The position numbers and the translations under genes were made by a program. A DNA stretch of 64,000 bases from Methylophaga nitratireducenticrescens (GTDB lineage Bacteria > Pseudomonadota > Gammaproteobacteria > Nitrosococcales > Methylophagaceae), in assembly GCF_000260985.4 (NCBI RefSeq), contig NC_017857.3:248001-312000 (forward strand), given 5' to 3'. Positions 26,800 through 59,391 of this stretch are shown here, in pieces. The notes under the pieces are model-generated. The model searched no databases and had not been told where the DNA came from. It saw only the letters and a program-made list of their open reading frames with translations. Position 1 is the stretch's first letter; each line of letters begins with the position of its first letter.

Positions 26800-26876
26800 T
26801 GGCGGAGCGGACGGGACTCGAACCCGCGACCTCCGGCGTGACAGGCCAGCATTCTAACCAACTGAACTACCGCTCC
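26800..26876 (-). tRNA. tRNA-Asp (GTC anticodon)
   Basis: 77-nt tRNA read on the minus strand. Acceptor GGAGCGG (5') pairs with CCGCTCC; D-arm region TAGTTCAGTTGGTTAGA; anticodon stem CTGGC/GCCGG with loop CTGTCAC giving anticodon GTC; T-arm GCGGGTTCGAGTCCCGT; discriminator G and encoded CCA end at 26800. This closely resembles E. coli tRNA-Asp. Single isolated tRNA gene. Confidence 0.97.
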
Positions 26877-48146: not shown

Positions 48147-48962
48147 TTAAATCTTAACGAGAATCTCGCCCATACCAATGCCACCGACATCGCCAGCGTA
48201 TCGTTGTACCCGGGAAAACCCCTCAACATTGGCAAACTTGCTATCCAGTTTTTTAAATGAGGCAAACATCAATGGTAAAAATGCCAGGGTATGCGAACCA
48301 CAATCATTAAAGTTGGCAGTGATGCCATGCTGCGGCATTTTAGGCAGCAATATCGTGCCGCGCTTCATTGCATAGCCCAGATGTTTGCCAACGTCACCCA
48401 ATACCGCGATGGTACCGGAAATCATCCGTGAACCGCAGTATTCGCCCGCATCACCTTCAATCAGGATCATGCCACGGCGCATATGATCGCCGGTGCGTGC
48501 TCCGGTATTACCCGTCACAATAATAGTGCCGCCAGTCATGCCGTTTTTATATCCGCTGCGGGCCGCGCCGACAAAATCTCCGGCATTACCGTTAATTTTG
48601 ATTTGGCCGCCTTTCATTTCACAGCCACTATAAATAAACGTGTTGCCAGTGATTTCAATATTTCCACCGGTCATAAACTGCCCCAGATAAGCACCGGCAT
48701 CACCTTCGATGGTAATCCGACCCTGGCTCATGGCATGACCGATATGATCCAGTTTGGCTGAGCTGTTTTCAAAGCGGATGTTGTTTACATCATCACCACT
48801 AATATCAAACAGTTCCTCTACCGGCAGCGTTAAACGACCACTCACCAGTTCCATCGCAGCAATATCTGCAACATCTTTACCCGCCAGTTTATCCGGTGTT
48901 AACGGAGAACAATCAACACGTTGTGTCAAATCCGTTTTGAGTTTAAGAGTCAATGCTTTCAT
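48147..48962 (-). CDS. fhcC: Formyltransferase/hydrolase complex subunit C
   Basis: 271 residues, homologous to formylmethanofuran dehydrogenase subunit C. Mostly a right-handed beta-helix of GxxGxxxG repeats (GDAGAYLGQFMTGG, GNAGDFVGAARSG, GDAGEYCGSRMISG, GDVGKHLGYAMKRG). In methylotrophs the Fhc complex has no net dehydrogenase role; it hydrolyses formyl-methanofuran-like intermediate to formate. Last gene of the cluster; ATG overlaps the fhcD stop (ATGA). Confidence 0.95.
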   Translation of the reverse strand: MKALTLKLKTDLTQRVDCSPLTPDKLAGKDVADIAAMELVSGRLTLPVEELFDISGDDVNNIRFENSSAKLDHIGHAMSQGRITIEGDAGAYLGQFMTGGNIEITGNTFIYSGCEMKGGQIKINGNAGDFVGAARSGYKNGMTGGTIIVTGNTGARTGDHMRRGMILIEGDAGEYCGSRMISGTIAVLGDVGKHLGYAMKRGTILLPKMPQHGITANFNDCGSHTLAFLPLMFASFKKLDSKFANVEGFSRVQRYAGDVGGIGMGEILVKI

Positions 48963-49861
48963 GCCATGATCTCCTGCAGATGAAAGTGGAATGGACCCAG
49001 TTTGCCACCATAATTACCGGCACTGATTCGGCGAATACCATTTTCAGCGCCTAAATCACATGCCGCCTGAATGCCGACACGCATGGCTTTATCAATATCT
49101 TCTTTGCTCAAGCCATCAATAACGATTTCCATAACGGATTCGACTTCTGGCGAACATTCGGATTTGGTCTGACCTTTTAAGGTCGGACAGAATGCATCAT
49201 TGGTTGAGGCATTTAACGCTTTGTATTTGGAACCAACTTTAGAACCACTGCGAACCACGCCGCCGGGAAACGGCATAATGATATTAGGCAGCTGTTTCAT
49301 GGCTTTAACAGCTGCTTCACACGCTGCCAGTGCCTGGGGCTGGGACTCGGCCAGGATCAGGAAGTTACCACCACCAACAGAGGAAACCACACCGGTATTT
49401 TCCTGGGTCAGAAATTCACCATCCATAACCGGAATACGCCAGTAACGTTTACCATCAATCATTTTCGATATCTGATAACCATCACCAAAGAAACGCAGGT
49501 TTTTACCCAACGCAATTTCTTTACCTTCTTCACCTTCAATCCCTGAAAATAAAGCAGATGTCGGCGAAGTTAAAACACACTGACCAGCGCGGGTTTCAAC
49601 CTGTTTCGCCAGTCCTTTACCGCCCATGGCAAAAATCAGACATGCGACGCCGGGACGACCATCAGGGGTTTCAGAAGGCTCTAAGGTTCGTTCAATGGAA
49701 GCTTCACAACCGCAGGCAATAACCGATGTAGCAAAACCGGTGAAGGCAGTAGCTGAATGCATCGCCCATTCCAGATTCTGAGCAGTAATAATGATTCGCG
49801 TTCCTTTCATCGGAAACGCTTCAGCAAAGGTTTTATCAATGCTGACGCCATTGATGATCAT
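48959..49861 (-). CDS. fhcD: Formylmethanofuran:H4MPT formyltransferase subunit
   Basis: 300 residues, about the size of archaeal Ftr. Conserved stretches include AEAFPMKGTRIIITAQNLEW, TSVIACGCEASIER, VSSVGGGNFLILAESQ and MPFPGGVVRSGSKVGSKY. Transfers formyl from formyl-tetrahydromethanopterin to the complex-bound methanofuran analogue during formaldehyde oxidation. Coupled to fhcA and fhcC by 4-nt overlaps. Confidence 0.97.
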   Translation of the reverse strand: MIINGVSIDKTFAEAFPMKGTRIIITAQNLEWAMHSATAFTGFATSVIACGCEASIERTLEPSETPDGRPGVACLIFAMGGKGLAKQVETRAGQCVLTSPTSALFSGIEGEEGKEIALGKNLRFFGDGYQISKMIDGKRYWRIPVMDGEFLTQENTGVVSSVGGGNFLILAESQPQALAACEAAVKAMKQLPNIIMPFPGGVVRSGSKVGSKYKALNASTNDAFCPTLKGQTKSECSPEVESVMEIVIDGLSKEDIDKAMRVGIQAACDLGAENGIRRISAGNYGGKLGPFHFHLQEIMA

Positions 49862-51525
49862 AGTCTGCCTCCCTTATGCAGCGGCTGTATCGTTAAGCTA
49901 CCACGACCATCATCGACGATTTCATCATTACTGATTTTGAAATTGCTCATTTTTTGCGTGTGGTATTTATCAAAATAAGATTTCAGTGGTTTTTCAATAC
50001 TTATGTCGTATTCAGGTTTCACCACATGGGTGGTCCCCCAGGTAATTTTAATGACCTGACCCTGACGCACCACCATTTCACCATCTTTAAAGACATAGTC
50101 CGGTTTTTCAAACATCTTTTCGCGATCGCTGTTATCGGTGTAGACCGTAATATCCGCCGCTGCACCAATTCCCAGATGTCCACGATCCGCCAGACCAACC
50201 AGTTTTGCTGCACCTGCCCGGGTCATAATGGCAATTTCATATAATGAGTATTCGCGATCCAACGACGCCAGATGGGTTGCTTTCTGTGCTTCCGGATGCA
50301 AGGTTGACAGCATATCGTTACGGAAAGATTTATCCATCAATAATCTTATCAAATGTGGGTAACTGGTAAATGGTGCTCCATTGGGATGATCGGTGGTCAG
50401 GAAAATACGCCATGGATCATCGACCATCAAAAAGGTTTCCAAACCAATCATCCACTGCAATGCATTAACGTAGCTTTGATCCTTGTATTTGAATGGCACT
50501 ACACCACAACCGGCATCACATTCAATATCCATACATACCCATTTATTAGGGTGAGCATGCGGTGCCCCAGCAAATTGACGCATATTATCGCCCGAGGCTG
50601 TAACCGTTTGGCCAAACAGAATCTGACCAACATCTACAGTAATATTTTTATGTTTATTAATCGCTTCAGCAATTTCCGCTGCACCGGATGAGAATTTGAA
50701 ATCCCCTTCCATGCCATAGCTATGAAACTGGATATGTGTCAGATGCATCGGCACGCCTTCAGCGCCCTGAATGGTATCCAATGTGGTTTGCATATTGCCC
50801 GGCACACCGAGATTACAGCCATGCACATGCAATGGATGTGGCACACCGATTTCCTGCACCGCTCGCGACAGTCTATGCAGAATATCGCGTGGCGTGACGC
50901 CATAAAAATCATTTTTTTCATCTAAATCCAGCTTACGCTGATTAAATTTGAAGGCACTGATACCGCCCGGGTTAACTACTTTAAGGCCTACCGCCTGTGC
51001 GTGGTTAATGGTCCAGGCAACATAGTTGTTAATGGCTTCCTGATCAGAATTGGCCGCCATCATACGTAGCAGAAAATCATCACTGCCGAGCATCACATAA
51101 CCACCCTTATCGATAATGGGTGTGTCATGCATTTCCATATGGGCCTGACGGGCATTAATCGGTAATACAGCTGGTTCAAAGCCTGCGGTATACCCCATCT
51201 CTGCGTAACGATAACCTGTCGTCAAAGTACTTGGAGCCGCATGGCCTGTGCCTGAGCGTAACAGTTCGGTGCGTTCATAAACGGCTTCAGCATGGTCTTC
51301 GGGTAACATGGTGCGGGCAATATTGACCTTACCACCGCCGATATGCGTGTGCATATCTATGGCACCAGCCATAATCACTTTGCCACTTACATCTATTTCT
51401 TCATCGACCCGACCATCGGTCGGTTTTTCGACAATTCGTCCATCTCGGATATAAATATCCCGCACTACATCATTTACTTCGTGTGCCGGGTCAAAAATAC
51501 GTCCGCCGGTTAATTTTAAAAGCAT
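49858..51525 (-). CDS. fhcA: Formyltransferase/hydrolase complex subunit A
   Basis: 555-residue amidohydrolase-fold subunit that hydrolyses the formyl group to formate. N-terminal GRIFDPAHEVNDVVRDIYI and the metal-binding HxH in MAGAIDMHTHIGGG (His58/His60 region), with later metal/active-site segments HPLHVHGCNLG, HLTHIQFHSYG and LTTDHPNGAPF. GGAGAG ribosome site just upstream. Second gene of fhcBADC. Confidence 0.97.
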   Translation of the reverse strand: MLLKLTGGRIFDPAHEVNDVVRDIYIRDGRIVEKPTDGRVDEEIDVSGKVIMAGAIDMHTHIGGGKVNIARTMLPEDHAEAVYERTELLRSGTGHAAPSTLTTGYRYAEMGYTAGFEPAVLPINARQAHMEMHDTPIIDKGGYVMLGSDDFLLRMMAANSDQEAINNYVAWTINHAQAVGLKVVNPGGISAFKFNQRKLDLDEKNDFYGVTPRDILHRLSRAVQEIGVPHPLHVHGCNLGVPGNMQTTLDTIQGAEGVPMHLTHIQFHSYGMEGDFKFSSGAAEIAEAINKHKNITVDVGQILFGQTVTASGDNMRQFAGAPHAHPNKWVCMDIECDAGCGVVPFKYKDQSYVNALQWMIGLETFLMVDDPWRIFLTTDHPNGAPFTSYPHLIRLLMDKSFRNDMLSTLHPEAQKATHLASLDREYSLYEIAIMTRAGAAKLVGLADRGHLGIGAAADITVYTDNSDREKMFEKPDYVFKDGEMVVRQGQVIKITWGTTHVVKPEYDISIEKPLKSYFDKYHTQKMSNFKISNDEIVDDGRGSLTIQPLHKGGRL

Positions 51526-51537
51526 CTTTCTCTCCGT

Positions 51538-52812
51538 TTACAAGGCCAGTTCGACCGCACTGAGAACTTCAAACACGCTGGGTAAGCCGCTGTCGCGTAA
51601 TTTTCTGAGTGGCACTGAAACCACACTGTCGCTGCGGAAGGCTCTTCCTTCATGGTCAATCCCGGGAACACCGACCGGAATATAGACTTCCGGTTCCGTT
51701 TCAAACTGCATACCACTGCGTCCAAGCACAATGGTATTCGCCGATGATTGAGGTGGTGTTACCGCTGTATTGAAACTGGATACCCAGATTAAAAGATCAC
51801 TTTCATCATTCACCAGAATACGTCTGCTGTCGTTTAAAAATGGATCATAATCCGGAAAACGACGATTAAATGTTGTGCGCATTGGGTAGCCGCTTTGCCA
51901 GGAGGCGACAGCATTCACTGTCGCGTCGCCTTCTTTTCCACCTATCGGCAGACCATTACTACGCGTCGTCGCATTGATCTCTTTAATCATTTCACAAATA
52001 TTTTGGATAGTCGCTTCTGCATGATCAAAATCTAACTGTCCAGCTGACCAGGTGACTACCGAATATTTAGCAGCTTTTAATTTATCTGCCAGGGCGGTTA
52101 AATCACTCACGGCTACACCCGCGACGGTTTCAGCTTGAATCTGTTTACCTTTTACTAAAGCACGTAAAACAGATACGACTTCTGGTAAATCCGCATTATC
52201 ACAGGCAATAACCTGGGCCTTTTTACCATTTGGTGAAGTGGAGGCATCACCACTTGGAGGTTTGCCTAAATAAATAACTTCACGAGACTCAATATCCTGA
52301 CCGAACATACTTTCCTTGTTCCACACCATGCGTTCGTAAAAACGTGGAAAAGTAGATTCAATATCAGTACCGACAACCACTAATAAATCCACCCGGTTTC
52401 TGACTTCTGTCAGTGTGGTGGTCATATAGCCCGTATCCTGTAATACCAGGATATTGCGAAATGCGGCTGGAGAATAATAACTGTCGATGGTGGCGCCACT
52501 TTTATCGGCAAGCGCCATCGCTGCACGCGCACCGTTTAAGTCGGTCCCCATACCGGCAATCAATGGCTGTTTACTATTAATCAGTAAATCAGCAATATGT
52601 GATACGGCCTGATCGAGTGTGACTTCTTTGCCGTTAATTCGGGGCTGAGTATCAGTGATAGGTGTTTCAAAACCGGGCCGGGTGACAGCATCGCCATTTT
52701 CCAGCACTTTAACAGTATTGCCGTTGACCTCTATCGTCAGATCATCGGACGCTATTCCACAAAATGGACTGGCAACTTCATGCCAAACGGTGGCCGTACT
52801 GTTTTCTGTCAT
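51538..52812 (-). CDS. fhcB: Formyltransferase/hydrolase complex subunit B
   Basis: About 424 residues, related to the molybdopterin subunit of formylmethanofuran dehydrogenases. It starts with the conserved SPFCGIASDDLTIEV, but has no Cys-rich FeS motif, in line with methylotroph FhcB, which is thought structural. Middle signature GTDIESTFPRFYERMVWN and C-terminal VPVGVPGIDHEGRAFRSD. The ATG at 52812 has GAGGA 8 nt upstream; an in-frame TTG at 52836 is rejected. First gene of the cluster. Confidence 0.95.
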   Translation of the reverse strand: MTENSTATVWHEVASPFCGIASDDLTIEVNGNTVKVLENGDAVTRPGFETPITDTQPRINGKEVTLDQAVSHIADLLINSKQPLIAGMGTDLNGARAAMALADKSGATIDSYYSPAAFRNILVLQDTGYMTTTLTEVRNRVDLLVVVGTDIESTFPRFYERMVWNKESMFGQDIESREVIYLGKPPSGDASTSPNGKKAQVIACDNADLPEVVSVLRALVKGKQIQAETVAGVAVSDLTALADKLKAAKYSVVTWSAGQLDFDHAEATIQNICEMIKEINATTRSNGLPIGGKEGDATVNAVASWQSGYPMRTTFNRRFPDYDPFLNDSRRILVNDESDLLIWVSSFNTAVTPPQSSANTIVLGRSGMQFETEPEVYIPVGVPGIDHEGRAFRSDSVVSVPLRKLRDSGLPSVFEVLSAVELAL

Positions 52813-52905
52813 ATCGCTGTCCTCGATAGTTTTCAATTAAATACACTGGGGCCATTATGGCCTGCTTCAAGCCCAGCCGGACATTCGGCAGAAATGTGCA
52901 TGGCG

Positions 52906-55354: not shown

Positions 55355-57529
55355 TTAGATTAATTCAGTAGGATCAATGTCAATCGACCAACGACCTTTT
55401 CGCGCCAGTTTAAGCTTGCTGACAGCTTCGATATGCTGATCGATTAATTGATGCAACGACGCACGATCTGCGGATCGCATCAGCAATTGTGCCCGATATC
55501 GACCGGCACGTTTTTCCATTAACGCTGGAACCGGTCCTAAAATCATTACCGGTGATGCAGTTTGTTGCAATAATTCGGCAACCTGTTGTAATAATTGCAT
55601 AGCCAAATCGGCTTCTTGTGCCTCAGCGCGCCAGACTGCCCAGAAACCATGGGGTGGCAGCTCCATCTGAATTCGCTCTTTTAATAAATTTTCAGCGATA
55701 GCTTCATAACCATCCTGCAGTAAATTTTTCCAGAAAGGGTGCTCCGGTTGTTCGCTTTGTATCAACACTTCACCCGACTTTTTGCCACGTCCAGCCCGAC
55801 CAGTCACCTGAGTAATTAACTGTGCCAGTCCCTCAGTGGCTCGAAAGTCAGCACTGAATAACGCCTGATCAGCATCCACAACACCGACCAGTGTCACATC
55901 ATGAAAATCATGCCCTTTGGCCAGCATCTGCGTACCCACCAGAATAGCCGCCTGACCCTGATTAATCTGTTTGACCATATTGGTAAAGGCATTGACCCGT
56001 TGGGTACTATCTCGATCAATCCGTAAAACCGGTATATCGTTAAAAATGGCTGTCAGAGCCTGCTCAATTTTTTCTGTTCCGACGCCATAACTTTTAAGTT
56101 CGGAATGACCACATTCTGGACATTTTTTCGGCAATGTCTGGATCAAACCACAATGATGACAAAACAATCTGTTTTGATGTTGATGAACCACCATTTTGGC
56201 ATCACAACTTCGGCAATTGGCCTGCCAGTTGCATTCATGACACATCAAAACCGGTGCGAATCCACGACGATTTATAAATAATAAAACCTGGTGATTTTGC
56301 TGCAGATGTTTTTTAATCGAGTTAATTAACACTGAGCTTAAGCCATTGTTATCTGCCGTTTTATTGGCAGCAATAAGCTTAACGTTGGGTAGTGTCGCTC
56401 CACCAGCACGTTTAGTTAACTTAAGTAATTGATAACGCTTTAATTTTACTTGGTAAAGAGTTTCCAGAGAAGGGGTTGCACTGCCCAGCACAATGGGAAT
56501 ATTCAAGGTTTTAGCCCGCATTAATGCCACATTTCTGGCGTGATAACGCAGTCCATCCTGTTGTTTATAGGAACTGTCATGTTCTTCATCGATGATCATC
56601 AGTCCCGGATTGAGCATGGGCGTAAAAACTGCAGAGCGGGTACCGATAATAATGTCGGCCTTACCCGATCTGGCCAATAACCAGGCCTGTTTACGATCAG
56701 CATCTGAGACCGATGAGTTTATAACAACGATGTTGGCCGCAAGGGAATGACGGAAACGCTCAACAAACTGTGTGGTTAATCCAATCTCTGGAATTAACAC
56801 TAAAACCTGTTGCTGGTTTTCGACAAACTCACGACATATTTCAATATAAACCTCTGTTTTGCCACTCCCGGTGATACCGTGCAACAAAAAAGATGAAAAC
56901 TGTCCTTTTTCCGCAAGAACTTTTTCAATAGACTGTTTTTGCTCATTATTTAATGAAACAGTTTGTTGCAACTCAAGACAGGGGACCGGTAATGCAACGT
57001 GTTCTCTGGCAGTAATTACGTTTTGTTGTGCCAAAGTAGTCAAACTGCTTTTCACGTTGCCAAATTGGACTCGTAATGCTTTTTCACTGAGTCCTTCCGG
57101 ATAGTCTTCCAGTAAATCCAGAATCTGTTGTTGTTTTTTACCGGGTTTATTTACCGGTATCTGTTGCAAGGCCCAATAGGTTTCGGTTTGCATTTCATCA
57201 CTATCGCCCAGACGGAGTTTCTTGGGTAATGCCGCCTGAAAGCATTCGCCAATAGGATGATGATAATAACGACTTACCCACTGTACCAGCTGCATGATTT
57301 CAACTGGTAAAAAACTTTGTTTATCAATTTGCTGTTCGATTTTTTTGAGTTTATCGGTAGAAATCTCGCTGACAGGTTTGATGGCAATGACGATTCCTAT
57401 CAGCTGTCTGCTGCCAAATGGAATGACAGCACGCATACCAGGTTGCCAGTGTTCAACTGGTTCATCGCTCAGATAATCAAACGTCTGGCGCAAGGGGCAA
57501 GCTAAGGCAATTTCGACAATGCAACTCAT
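55355..57529 (-). CDS. priA: Primosomal protein N', replication restart helicase
   Basis: 724-residue superfamily 2 helicase. N-terminal 3'-DNA-binding domain (to about 110), Walker A LLHGITGSGKTEVYIE, Walker B MIIDEEHDSSYKQ, an inserted zinc-binding region with eight Cys (CHECNWQANCRSCD ... CHHCGL ... CPECGH) and motifs V-VI VGVVDADQALFSADFRA and QVTGRAGRG. Reloads DnaB at stalled forks. Its 5' side is the gap with five DnaA boxes. Confidence 0.97.
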   Translation of the reverse strand: MSCIVEIALACPLRQTFDYLSDEPVEHWQPGMRAVIPFGSRQLIGIVIAIKPVSEISTDKLKKIEQQIDKQSFLPVEIMQLVQWVSRYYHHPIGECFQAALPKKLRLGDSDEMQTETYWALQQIPVNKPGKKQQQILDLLEDYPEGLSEKALRVQFGNVKSSLTTLAQQNVITAREHVALPVPCLELQQTVSLNNEQKQSIEKVLAEKGQFSSFLLHGITGSGKTEVYIEICREFVENQQQVLVLIPEIGLTTQFVERFRHSLAANIVVINSSVSDADRKQAWLLARSGKADIIIGTRSAVFTPMLNPGLMIIDEEHDSSYKQQDGLRYHARNVALMRAKTLNIPIVLGSATPSLETLYQVKLKRYQLLKLTKRAGGATLPNVKLIAANKTADNNGLSSVLINSIKKHLQQNHQVLLFINRRGFAPVLMCHECNWQANCRSCDAKMVVHQHQNRLFCHHCGLIQTLPKKCPECGHSELKSYGVGTEKIEQALTAIFNDIPVLRIDRDSTQRVNAFTNMVKQINQGQAAILVGTQMLAKGHDFHDVTLVGVVDADQALFSADFRATEGLAQLITQVTGRAGRGKKSGEVLIQSEQPEHPFWKNLLQDGYEAIAENLLKERIQMELPPHGFWAVWRAEAQEADLAMQLLQQVAELLQQTASPVMILGPVPALMEKRAGRYRAQLLMRSADRASLHQLIDQHIEAVSKLKLARKGRWSIDIDPTELI

Positions 57530-57540
57530 TAAACAATACT

Positions 57541-57774
57541 AATTAAATAAAAGAGATCTTTTAATGATGTTAATGCTTTAGTCCTGTGGATAGCTGTATT
57601 AATCCTGAAAAGCCTTTTTATTCATTACGTTAAAGAATGATCTAATTGTGTATAAGTTTATCGTTGCGGGATCGATCTCTTGTGGATAACTTAACGACTT
57701 ATCCACAGGTAATCTTATCCACAGCTTATGCCATGTTTTATAAGCAAAGCATACCGTAGTTGTTAAGTCCTTTT
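57541..57774. other. DnaA-box cluster, candidate replication origin or titration site
   Basis: AT-rich 245-bp gap between priA and the phosphate cotransporter gene. Five DnaA boxes in 140 bp: TGTGGATAG (57585-57593, one mismatch), TGTGTATAA (57647-57655, the TTATACACA form), TGTGGATAA (57681-57689), TTATCCACA (57699-57707) and TTATCCACA (57715-57723), the last three perfect. Three or four GATC sites and AT-rich GATCT-T stretches (57554-57565, 57639-57650) lie on one side. This is oriC-like in content; gene context differs from the usual dnaA or mnmG neighbourhoods. Confidence 0.6.
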
Positions 57775-59391
57775 TTACGGTTTATCTATCGGATGATCGA
57801 GTTGGCTGTTGGAAAAAAACAGACTGGCTTTTACGGCTTGCTGGCAAATTCTTCGTAATTGAGATATGGCTTGTAATTCTTTTTCCATGCGGGCGATTGA
57901 AAGTCTTCCCTCAGCACCTCGACGCAATAACAAAGACTTTAAGGAAAGATAGGTTTTTTCCAGGCTGTCGAGCTGGTTTTTTAAGAATGGATTGAGCTTA
58001 TCTAAAGCAGAAATATCAATCAGCAATAAACAATCCACATTAAAATTGGTGAGCTGTTGCTGCAGTTGGGCCTCAATCGGATGACTAGATAAAGCACGAT
58101 TTTCAGCGATAGCAACGGTTAAGGCAGAAATTGCATCACAGTACTGCGAAACGCGTAATAAATCGGCCGTTTTTTCAGCAATTTGTTCATTGATGTGTTG
58201 TTGATAAAGTTTGTGACTGAAGTTGCCAATTTTTAAAATATTTTGCTCGGTAAAAGCGTGTTGCTGTTTTAACCAGCTGATGGAACGGTTTTTATGGATA
58301 CAGTGAGTTACCATTTTTAGAACATGTTTATTCAGTCTAATTAATTCAAGACGAATGGAGGTGATTGCCAGATTGGGTATCTTTAATGTGGTGTTATCGA
58401 GATATTTGGTTTCGGCAATATTTTCATCCGTTGCTGAAAATTTCGTTTTCAACCCGTTTTCCAGGGGATCGGCCAGCTTCCAGATAAGTGCTACGCCTAA
58501 TAAATTAAACACGGTGTGGAATAAAACCAGAGTAGTGGTGAATTGGACATCCTCAACCACTAATTGCTGAAACCAATGGATAATCCAGATTAACGGCACC
58601 AGCAAAATAAGACTGACGATAGCTGTTAGCAGATTAAAAAGAACATGACTGGCGACAATACGTTTAGCGACCGGCTGACTGCCGATAACGGCGAATATAG
58701 CTGTCGTCGTTGAGCCGAGATTACTGCCAATCACAATTGCAGCGGCAGGTAATAAATCGATGATTCCGCCAGCGAGCGAAGTCAATGCAAGAGTTAAAGT
58801 AAGGCTGGAAGATTGCAGTAAAGTGGTCAGAATTAAACCCGCCAACGCAAACATCACAATATCAATGGCCAATAATCCGCTGGAGAAATGCAGATCAAAT
58901 AAACTGTCAGCTCCTGAGAAGGTTGTTTTTAAGGCCGCTATACCCATAAACAGCAGGCCAAAACCGGTTAGTGCCAATCCGATATTCGCATAGGCTCGAT
59001 TACTGTTTAATAAGCGCATCGCCATGCCTATTCCAATTAGCGGTAAGGCAAAATGTTCAATATTCAGGTTGAAACCGATCAGCACAACCAGCCATCCGGT
59101 GACCGTCGTACCAACATTGCTGCCAAATACAATCCACATAGCTCTACGCAGGCTGAGAATACCGGCATTGGCAAACCCAATCGTGGCCAAAGTAACTGCA
59201 CCTGAATGTTGAATAATCGCGGTGAGCAGAAAACCCGCACTTAAGCCACGCAGACGGCTGTTAGTCCAGTTTTTAAGGATTTGATTGAGCCTTTCCCCGG
59301 CAATTTGTTTAAGGCCGTCAGACATCAACCACATCCCCAGCATAAACAAACCCAAGCCACCTATCAGCGATCCCAACATATTCAACATCAT
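57775..59391 (-). CDS. Na/phosphate cotransporter family protein with PhoU-like tail
   Basis: 538 residues. N-terminal ~310 residues hold about eight to nine membrane helices with two Na/Pi signature repeats (GFLLTAIIQHSGAVTLATIG and LILTTLLQSSSLTLTLALTS, QSS-type motifs; GSNVGTTVTGW and GSNLGSTTTAI). The C-terminal ~200 residues are soluble and helical, like PhoU. Likely sodium-driven phosphate transport at the inner membrane; export is possible for such fusions. Single gene. Confidence 0.92.
   Translation of the reverse strand: MMLNMLGSLIGGLGLFMLGMWLMSDGLKQIAGERLNQILKNWTNSRLRGLSAGFLLTAIIQHSGAVTLATIGFANAGILSLRRAMWIVFGSNVGTTVTGWLVVLIGFNLNIEHFALPLIGIGMAMRLLNSNRAYANIGLALTGFGLLFMGIAALKTTFSGADSLFDLHFSSGLLAIDIVMFALAGLILTTLLQSSSLTLTLALTSLAGGIIDLLPAAAIVIGSNLGSTTTAIFAVIGSQPVAKRIVASHVLFNLLTAIVSLILLVPLIWIIHWFQQLVVEDVQFTTTLVLFHTVFNLLGVALIWKLADPLENGLKTKFSATDENIAETKYLDNTTLKIPNLAITSIRLELIRLNKHVLKMVTHCIHKNRSISWLKQQHAFTEQNILKIGNFSHKLYQQHINEQIAEKTADLLRVSQYCDAISALTVAIAENRALSSHPIEAQLQQQLTNFNVDCLLLIDISALDKLNPFLKNQLDSLEKTYLSLKSLLLRRGAEGRLSIARMEKELQAISQLRRICQQAVKASLFFSNSQLDHPIDKP

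Follow-up and report, generated by a model that had tools for sequence, protein, structure and literature searches.

A cluster of DnaA boxes beside priA as the probable chromosomal replication origin of Methylophaga nitratireducenticrescens and its family

Can a chromosome start its replication beside priA, at a distance from dnaA, dnaN, and mnmG? The question is raised by a cluster of five DnaA boxes found in the window, i.e., the whole 64-kb stretch of DNA analyzed here (248,001–312,000 of a single contig of 3.135 Mb), in the gap between priA and a gene related to Na/Pi cotransporters. This gap (57530–57774 of the window) is 245 bp long and has a GC content of 31.8%, compared to 45.7% for the window, and the five boxes, three of them perfect, are packed into 139 bp (57585–57723, or 305,585–305,723 in chromosome coordinates). 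Starting from the priA side, they are CTATCCACA, with one mismatch (57585–57593, minus strand), TTATACACA (57647–57655, minus), and the three TTATCCACA boxes that make up the core, at 57681–57689 (minus), 57699–57707 (plus), and 57715–57723 (plus). The same 245 bp contain four GATC sites (57555, 57639, 57670, and 57674). One flank is priA, coding for primosomal protein N' (55355–57529, minus strand; TIGR00595 with 591 bits and NF004067 with 905 bits), and the other is the relative of Na/Pi symporters (57775–59391, minus strand; NF037997 with 139 bits, cut-off 50). An earlier note, made from the letters of this DNA, had described five boxes within 140 bp and in both orientations, in an AT-rich gap with GATC sites between priA and a phosphate cotransporter gene, and all of this has held, the flanks being now backed by profile matches.

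The window as a whole has an ordinary number of TTATNCACA sites (four, with 3.22 expected), and it is their clustering that is unusual, all four being located within the priA gap. When gaps were simulated with a first-order Markov model on the gap's own composition, the mean was 0.07 boxes (up to one mismatch) per 245 bp and five boxes appeared in none of the 20,000 runs, in keeping with the earlier statement that such a density has a very low chance of occurring. The genome-wide count proposed in the earlier note gave 129 TTATNCACA sites, and among the 100 of these 129 that were listed there is no second spot with three of them in 200 bp. Throughout the 889 kb of the genome that were scanned, the next densest spots have three boxes (up to one mismatch) per 200 bp versus five at the cluster, and the only other places with at least three boxes per 200 bp in the stretches examined are at 3.06–3.07 Mb. 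No other spot of this density was present in the contiguous stretches of four more genomes of the genus (G009, G014, G008, and G005). The strand bias of the boxes was considered as a replichore signal and dropped, since it rests on the 100 of 129 sites listed.

An oriC beside dnaA, dnaN, or mnmG is usual, not obligatory. None of these genes adjoins the cluster, as had been pointed out before for dnaA and mnmG, which are located at about 145 kb (159,503–160,843) and 63 kb (240,774–242,615) from it, respectively. Within the contiguous 137–394 kb of the window's genome, the cumulative GC skew has its minimum at 314,747, 9.0 kb from the cluster, and no box cluster is closer to this minimum than the one in the priA gap. 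Overall, the minimum falls 0.5–9.2 kb from the cluster in the five genus genomes tested (five of five), in which dnaA is 102–212 kb away from the cluster, and the skew check suggested by the earlier note has placed the minimum near the boxes. Specifically, it is at 1,986,300 in G009 (cluster from 1,987,919, 1.6 kb apart, 280 kb examined), 369,685 in G014 (cluster 362,759, 6.9 kb apart), 256,804 in G008 (cluster 256,245, 0.5 kb apart), and 290,472 in G005 (cluster 281,213, 9.2 kb apart), the last three values coming from 120-kb stretches picked around priA, with dnaA outside them. It counts against an origin at the cluster that in three of the five genus members the minimum is 7–9 kb away.

On the scale of the chromosome, most 20-kb samples taken between about 2.0 Mb and 305 kb, passing through zero, have a negative skew, and most of those between 314 kb and 1.9 Mb a positive one. 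There are exceptions in both arms, in the negative one at 137–157 kb (+0.010), 264–280 kb (0.000), and 3.10–3.135 Mb (about 0, with nearly all coding on the plus strand) and in the positive one at 785 kb and 1.80 Mb, where the skew is negative. The strand bias of the ORFs agrees with the skew, the share of ORF length on the plus strand being 0.58 in the right arm, 0.37 in the left arm, and 0.28 between dnaA and the cluster. A dif-like site, with three of its 26 letters off the consensus, is found at 1,989,194, and the skew is near zero at 1.944–2.035 Mb. With the cluster as the starting point, the two arms up to this site measure 1.68 and 1.45 Mb, versus 1.83 and 1.31 Mb with dnaA.

The comparison of this gap in relatives, another of the checks put forward earlier, has covered 17 priA gaps, from 15 of the 17 genomes of one genus (G000, the window's genome, to G016; G004 and G010 gave no gap) and from two members of a second genus in the same family (G028 and G385). 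The boxes are retained, above all the central triplet (minus, plus, plus, with starts 18 and 16 bp apart and up to one mismatch in each box), which is kept in all 17 gaps, and therefore in two genera; its three boxes were followed in an alignment of 15 rows. A fourth box with up to one mismatch is found 34 bp farther, at the spacing of 57647, in 16 of the 17 gaps, and a fifth, corresponding to 57585, in only three. Applied strictly, the core-spacing pattern gave two matches in 369 genomes of the class, both within the genus; G028 and G385 have the spacing, but one or two letters keep them from matching. A Dam methylase gene is present in the window's genome, but GATC sites are few (one to six per 260 bp across the 17 gaps, a mild enrichment only), so sequestration in the style of E. 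coli, with its many GATC sites, Dam, and SeqA, has no clear support for the gap of this family. The IHF consensus, as we tried it, matches in two of the 17 family gaps and nowhere in that of the window.

In steps of 40 bp, the gap is least stable at its priA side (57531–57571), where the nearest-neighbor stability is 1.054 (0.04th percentile), the mean for the window being 1.371, and we propose this step as the duplex-unwinding element. When the 17 family gaps are averaged, the least stable position is at the same place (1.046, sd 0.033). A second AT-rich and easily melted stretch (57621–57661) has a stability of 1.099 (0.17th percentile). What we infer for initiation at this gap, from DnaA binding to the unwinding site, would go as follows: DnaA would nucleate on the central triplet (57681 minus, 57699 plus, and 57715 plus), the filament would grow to the left over the weaker boxes toward priA (57647 and 57585), and the AT-rich stretch that it reaches at the start of priA would melt. 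Helicase loading would come next, and then two forks would leave in opposite directions.

The picture at dnaA is the reverse. In the window's family, the gap between dnaA and dnaN (the latter recognized from its position and N-terminus) is 8–28 bp long and has zero boxes in 16 of 16 genomes measured, and the family rows, two of which have almost no upstream DNA, show no DnaA box either in this gap or in the 600 bp that precede dnaA. Neither dnaA nor mnmG has a cluster at its locus in the family, the density there never exceeding two boxes per 300 bp. A sister family (f2), in contrast, has 5–9 boxes between dnaA and the next gene in the five genomes with dnaA (five of five), mostly 11–12 bp apart and in two opposed runs. 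In the one f2 genome tested (G021, the control), the skew minimum (842,197) is at its own dnaA–dnaN box array (841,962–842,116). None of six f2 priA gaps has a box cluster, and the distance between priA and dnaA is 14–24 kb in the same five genomes. A third family (f3) has 3–4 boxes in the dnaA–dnaN gap, in two genomes.

The priA gap combines what identifies an oriC, namely an intergenic cluster of boxes, closeness to the skew minimum, an AT-rich unstable element, and conservation among relatives. Taking together the skew minima, the conservation of the triplet, and the empty dnaA–dnaN gap compared to the arrays of f2, we conclude that the gap between priA and the Na/Pi cotransporter gene is very probably the chromosomal replication origin of the window's family. 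Of what the earlier note named as grounds for refutation, neither a skew minimum elsewhere nor a loss of the boxes in close relatives has turned up. Among the two readings offered by that note, the origin is the one supported, by skew and conservation, while a datA-like locus for DnaA titration is not needed, although the cluster may have a second, regulatory role beside the origin. That the boxes came together by chance could be argued from how common isolated TTATNCACA sites are in the genome, but this has practically no probability given the simulated gaps, and the persistence of the triplet in two genera has already refuted it. Another reading would be an origin located as usual at dnaA, with the skew as a relic of an old position. 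It has in its favor that the same chromosome carries dnaA, 145 kb off, and that predictions of the DoriC type weigh proximity to dnaA, according to PMC6323995, but from dnaA to the cluster both skew and coding strand have the direction expected for a fork coming from the cluster, and with no box in the family rows at dnaA we regard this reading as very improbable. Since neither locus exceeds two boxes per 300 bp, dnaA and mnmG were rejected as origin sites.

Somewhat less remote, although still improbable, is that the cluster is a titrating or switching site (datA- or DARS-like) or a DnaA-controlled promoter of priA, the origin being a site nearby with fewer boxes. In many other Gammaproteobacteria, the priA gap indeed carries boxes that are probably not an origin and are spaced like those of the DARS core in E. 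coli (see below). However, the DARS spacing has no match, with up to three mismatches, in the 17 family priA gaps (L023–L034, L045, L047, L048, L250, and L251), the skew minimum coincides with the cluster, and the stretches of G009, G014, G008, and G005 contain no rival spot. Both the skew minimum and the failed DARS spacing speak against a datA- or DARS-like function as the main role, and an origin at priA is preferred here.

At the map positions of DARS1 and DARS2 in E. coli K-12, the distances between box starts are 14 and 12 bp in both cores, and the orientations are identical. The shared spacing and the face-to-face arrangement of boxes I and II are also described in PMC5742627 and PMC8682772. 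The cluster in the window resembles these cores in having its boxes in an intergenic gap, the very gap that carries a DARS-spaced array in other Gammaproteobacteria, but differs in geometry: DARS has spacings of 12 and then 14 bp, with boxes I and II face to face 5 bp apart, whereas the window has 18 and 16 bp and an inverted pair of the opposite direction, its two boxes separated by 9 bp. Of 80 named priA loci, 14 have the DARS geometry (up to three mismatches) in the 620 bp before the gene and none has the reversed pattern; the 80 are not independent (many belong to Pseudomonas, which have no array), and in three of them the upstream DNA is shorter than 600 bp. The 14 (L171, L188, L190, L193, L199, L203, L211, L217, L220, L222, L225, L230, L239, and L245) include Xanthomonas, Stenotrophomonas, Lysobacter, Methylovulum, Methylomagnum, and Ectothiorhodospiraceae. 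Class-wide, the pattern (up to two mismatches) occurs in 295 of 369 genomes, often about two per genome, with zero for the reversed control. In nine of 30 pattern loci fetched (L291–L294, L310, L311, and L313–L315) the next gene downstream is priA, oriented alike, and in two rpmE is close by; the neighbors of DARS in E. coli (rppH, ptsP, mutH, uvrB, and bioD) were not found in these 30, most of which are thus left with no named neighbor. Their spacing pattern makes these arrays DARS-like, and they may have DARS activity. The literature passages on DARS describe conservation of DARS2 just for species close to E. coli; with this limit on the sources, the arrays suggest that reactivation of DnaA may reach far beyond the relatives of E. 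coli. The window's genome has three DARS-like cores elsewhere and none at priA. One priA gap (L039, from G026, at about 1042–1350) contains a tandem pair of DARS-like arrays, about 270 bp apart.

E. coli is an established case of an origin away from dnaA, and its oriC, between mnmG and mioC, is a close parallel to the family gap. Both are AT-rich gaps distant from dnaA in which boxes of the TTATCCACA type cluster, in genomes that encode Dam, and in both, measured alike, the least stable stretch is beside the leftmost minus box (R1 in E. coli), with a plus box at the far end. The differences are in the neighbors (here priA and the Na/Pi cotransporter), in the spacing of the boxes (62/34/18/16 here versus 106/35/39 in E. 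coli), in GATC sites (14 in 378 bp there, four in 245 bp here), and in the IHF consensus that we tried, which is without match in 15 of the 17 family gaps. Compared to the dnaA–dnaN origins of f2, with which it shares a box array near the skew minimum, the window has five boxes, wider apart and at priA. In E. coli datA, also a DnaA-box cluster outside dnaA, the boxes flank an IHF site, and datA stimulates ATP hydrolysis by DnaA. It is no origin, in contrast to a cluster near the skew minimum (for datA, the comparison is with the listed order of boxes only). A natural origin far from both dnaA and dnaN is reported for Synechococcus lividus PCC 6715 in PMC6323995, and PMC4285127 states in general terms that origins away from dnaA exist; the former is similar in its distance from both genes, but belongs to a cyanobacterium and has TTTTCCACA boxes. 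For Francisella, priA is named among the marker genes near the predicted oriC. We found no literature that places the origin of this group at priA; subscription journals and DoriC were outside the search, so a database prediction may exist. The origin would be ordinary as an element, in a place that is new and family-wide.

Most simply, these data can be read as a move of the origin from dnaA–dnaN to priA in the window's family with deletion of the former one, and the dnaA–dnaN origin indeed appears to have been lost there. One possibility, which we find rather unlikely, is that a DARS-like element in the priA gap is ancestral and that the oriC of the family was built in or over it while the dnaA–dnaN origin was deleted. 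Descent from such an element is a guess, since the geometry differs and f2 has neither at priA. A short hop of the origin followed by rearrangement would also do, as priA is already so close to dnaA in f2; the first step could have been this hop, with a later rearrangement carrying dnaA and mnmG away. A whole family with its origin at priA and the ancestral one visibly deleted would provide, together with the sister family, a before-and-after pair in which how a bacterium changes its origin becomes directly testable. In practical terms, rotating such genomes to dnaA, or predicting their origin from it, would misplace the start by 102–212 kb.

Some other observations were made along the way. 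In one f2 genome (G018; L316 and L336), a single contig that is 98% complete, there is no match to DnaA or Hda; dnaN stands at one end of the contig, where it begins, and rnpA, yidC, and mnmE at the other, so that dnaA is absent between them, either through real loss or because the contig end was trimmed. The only Rfam match at the gathering threshold in the window is a tRNA at 26803–26876 (minus strand). The window also has, at 48959–52836, a gene for formylmethanofuran dehydrogenase subunit A (TIGR03121) in a run of ORFs on the same strand, a mark of one-carbon metabolism, and a similar gene is found near the dnaN end of the G018 contig.
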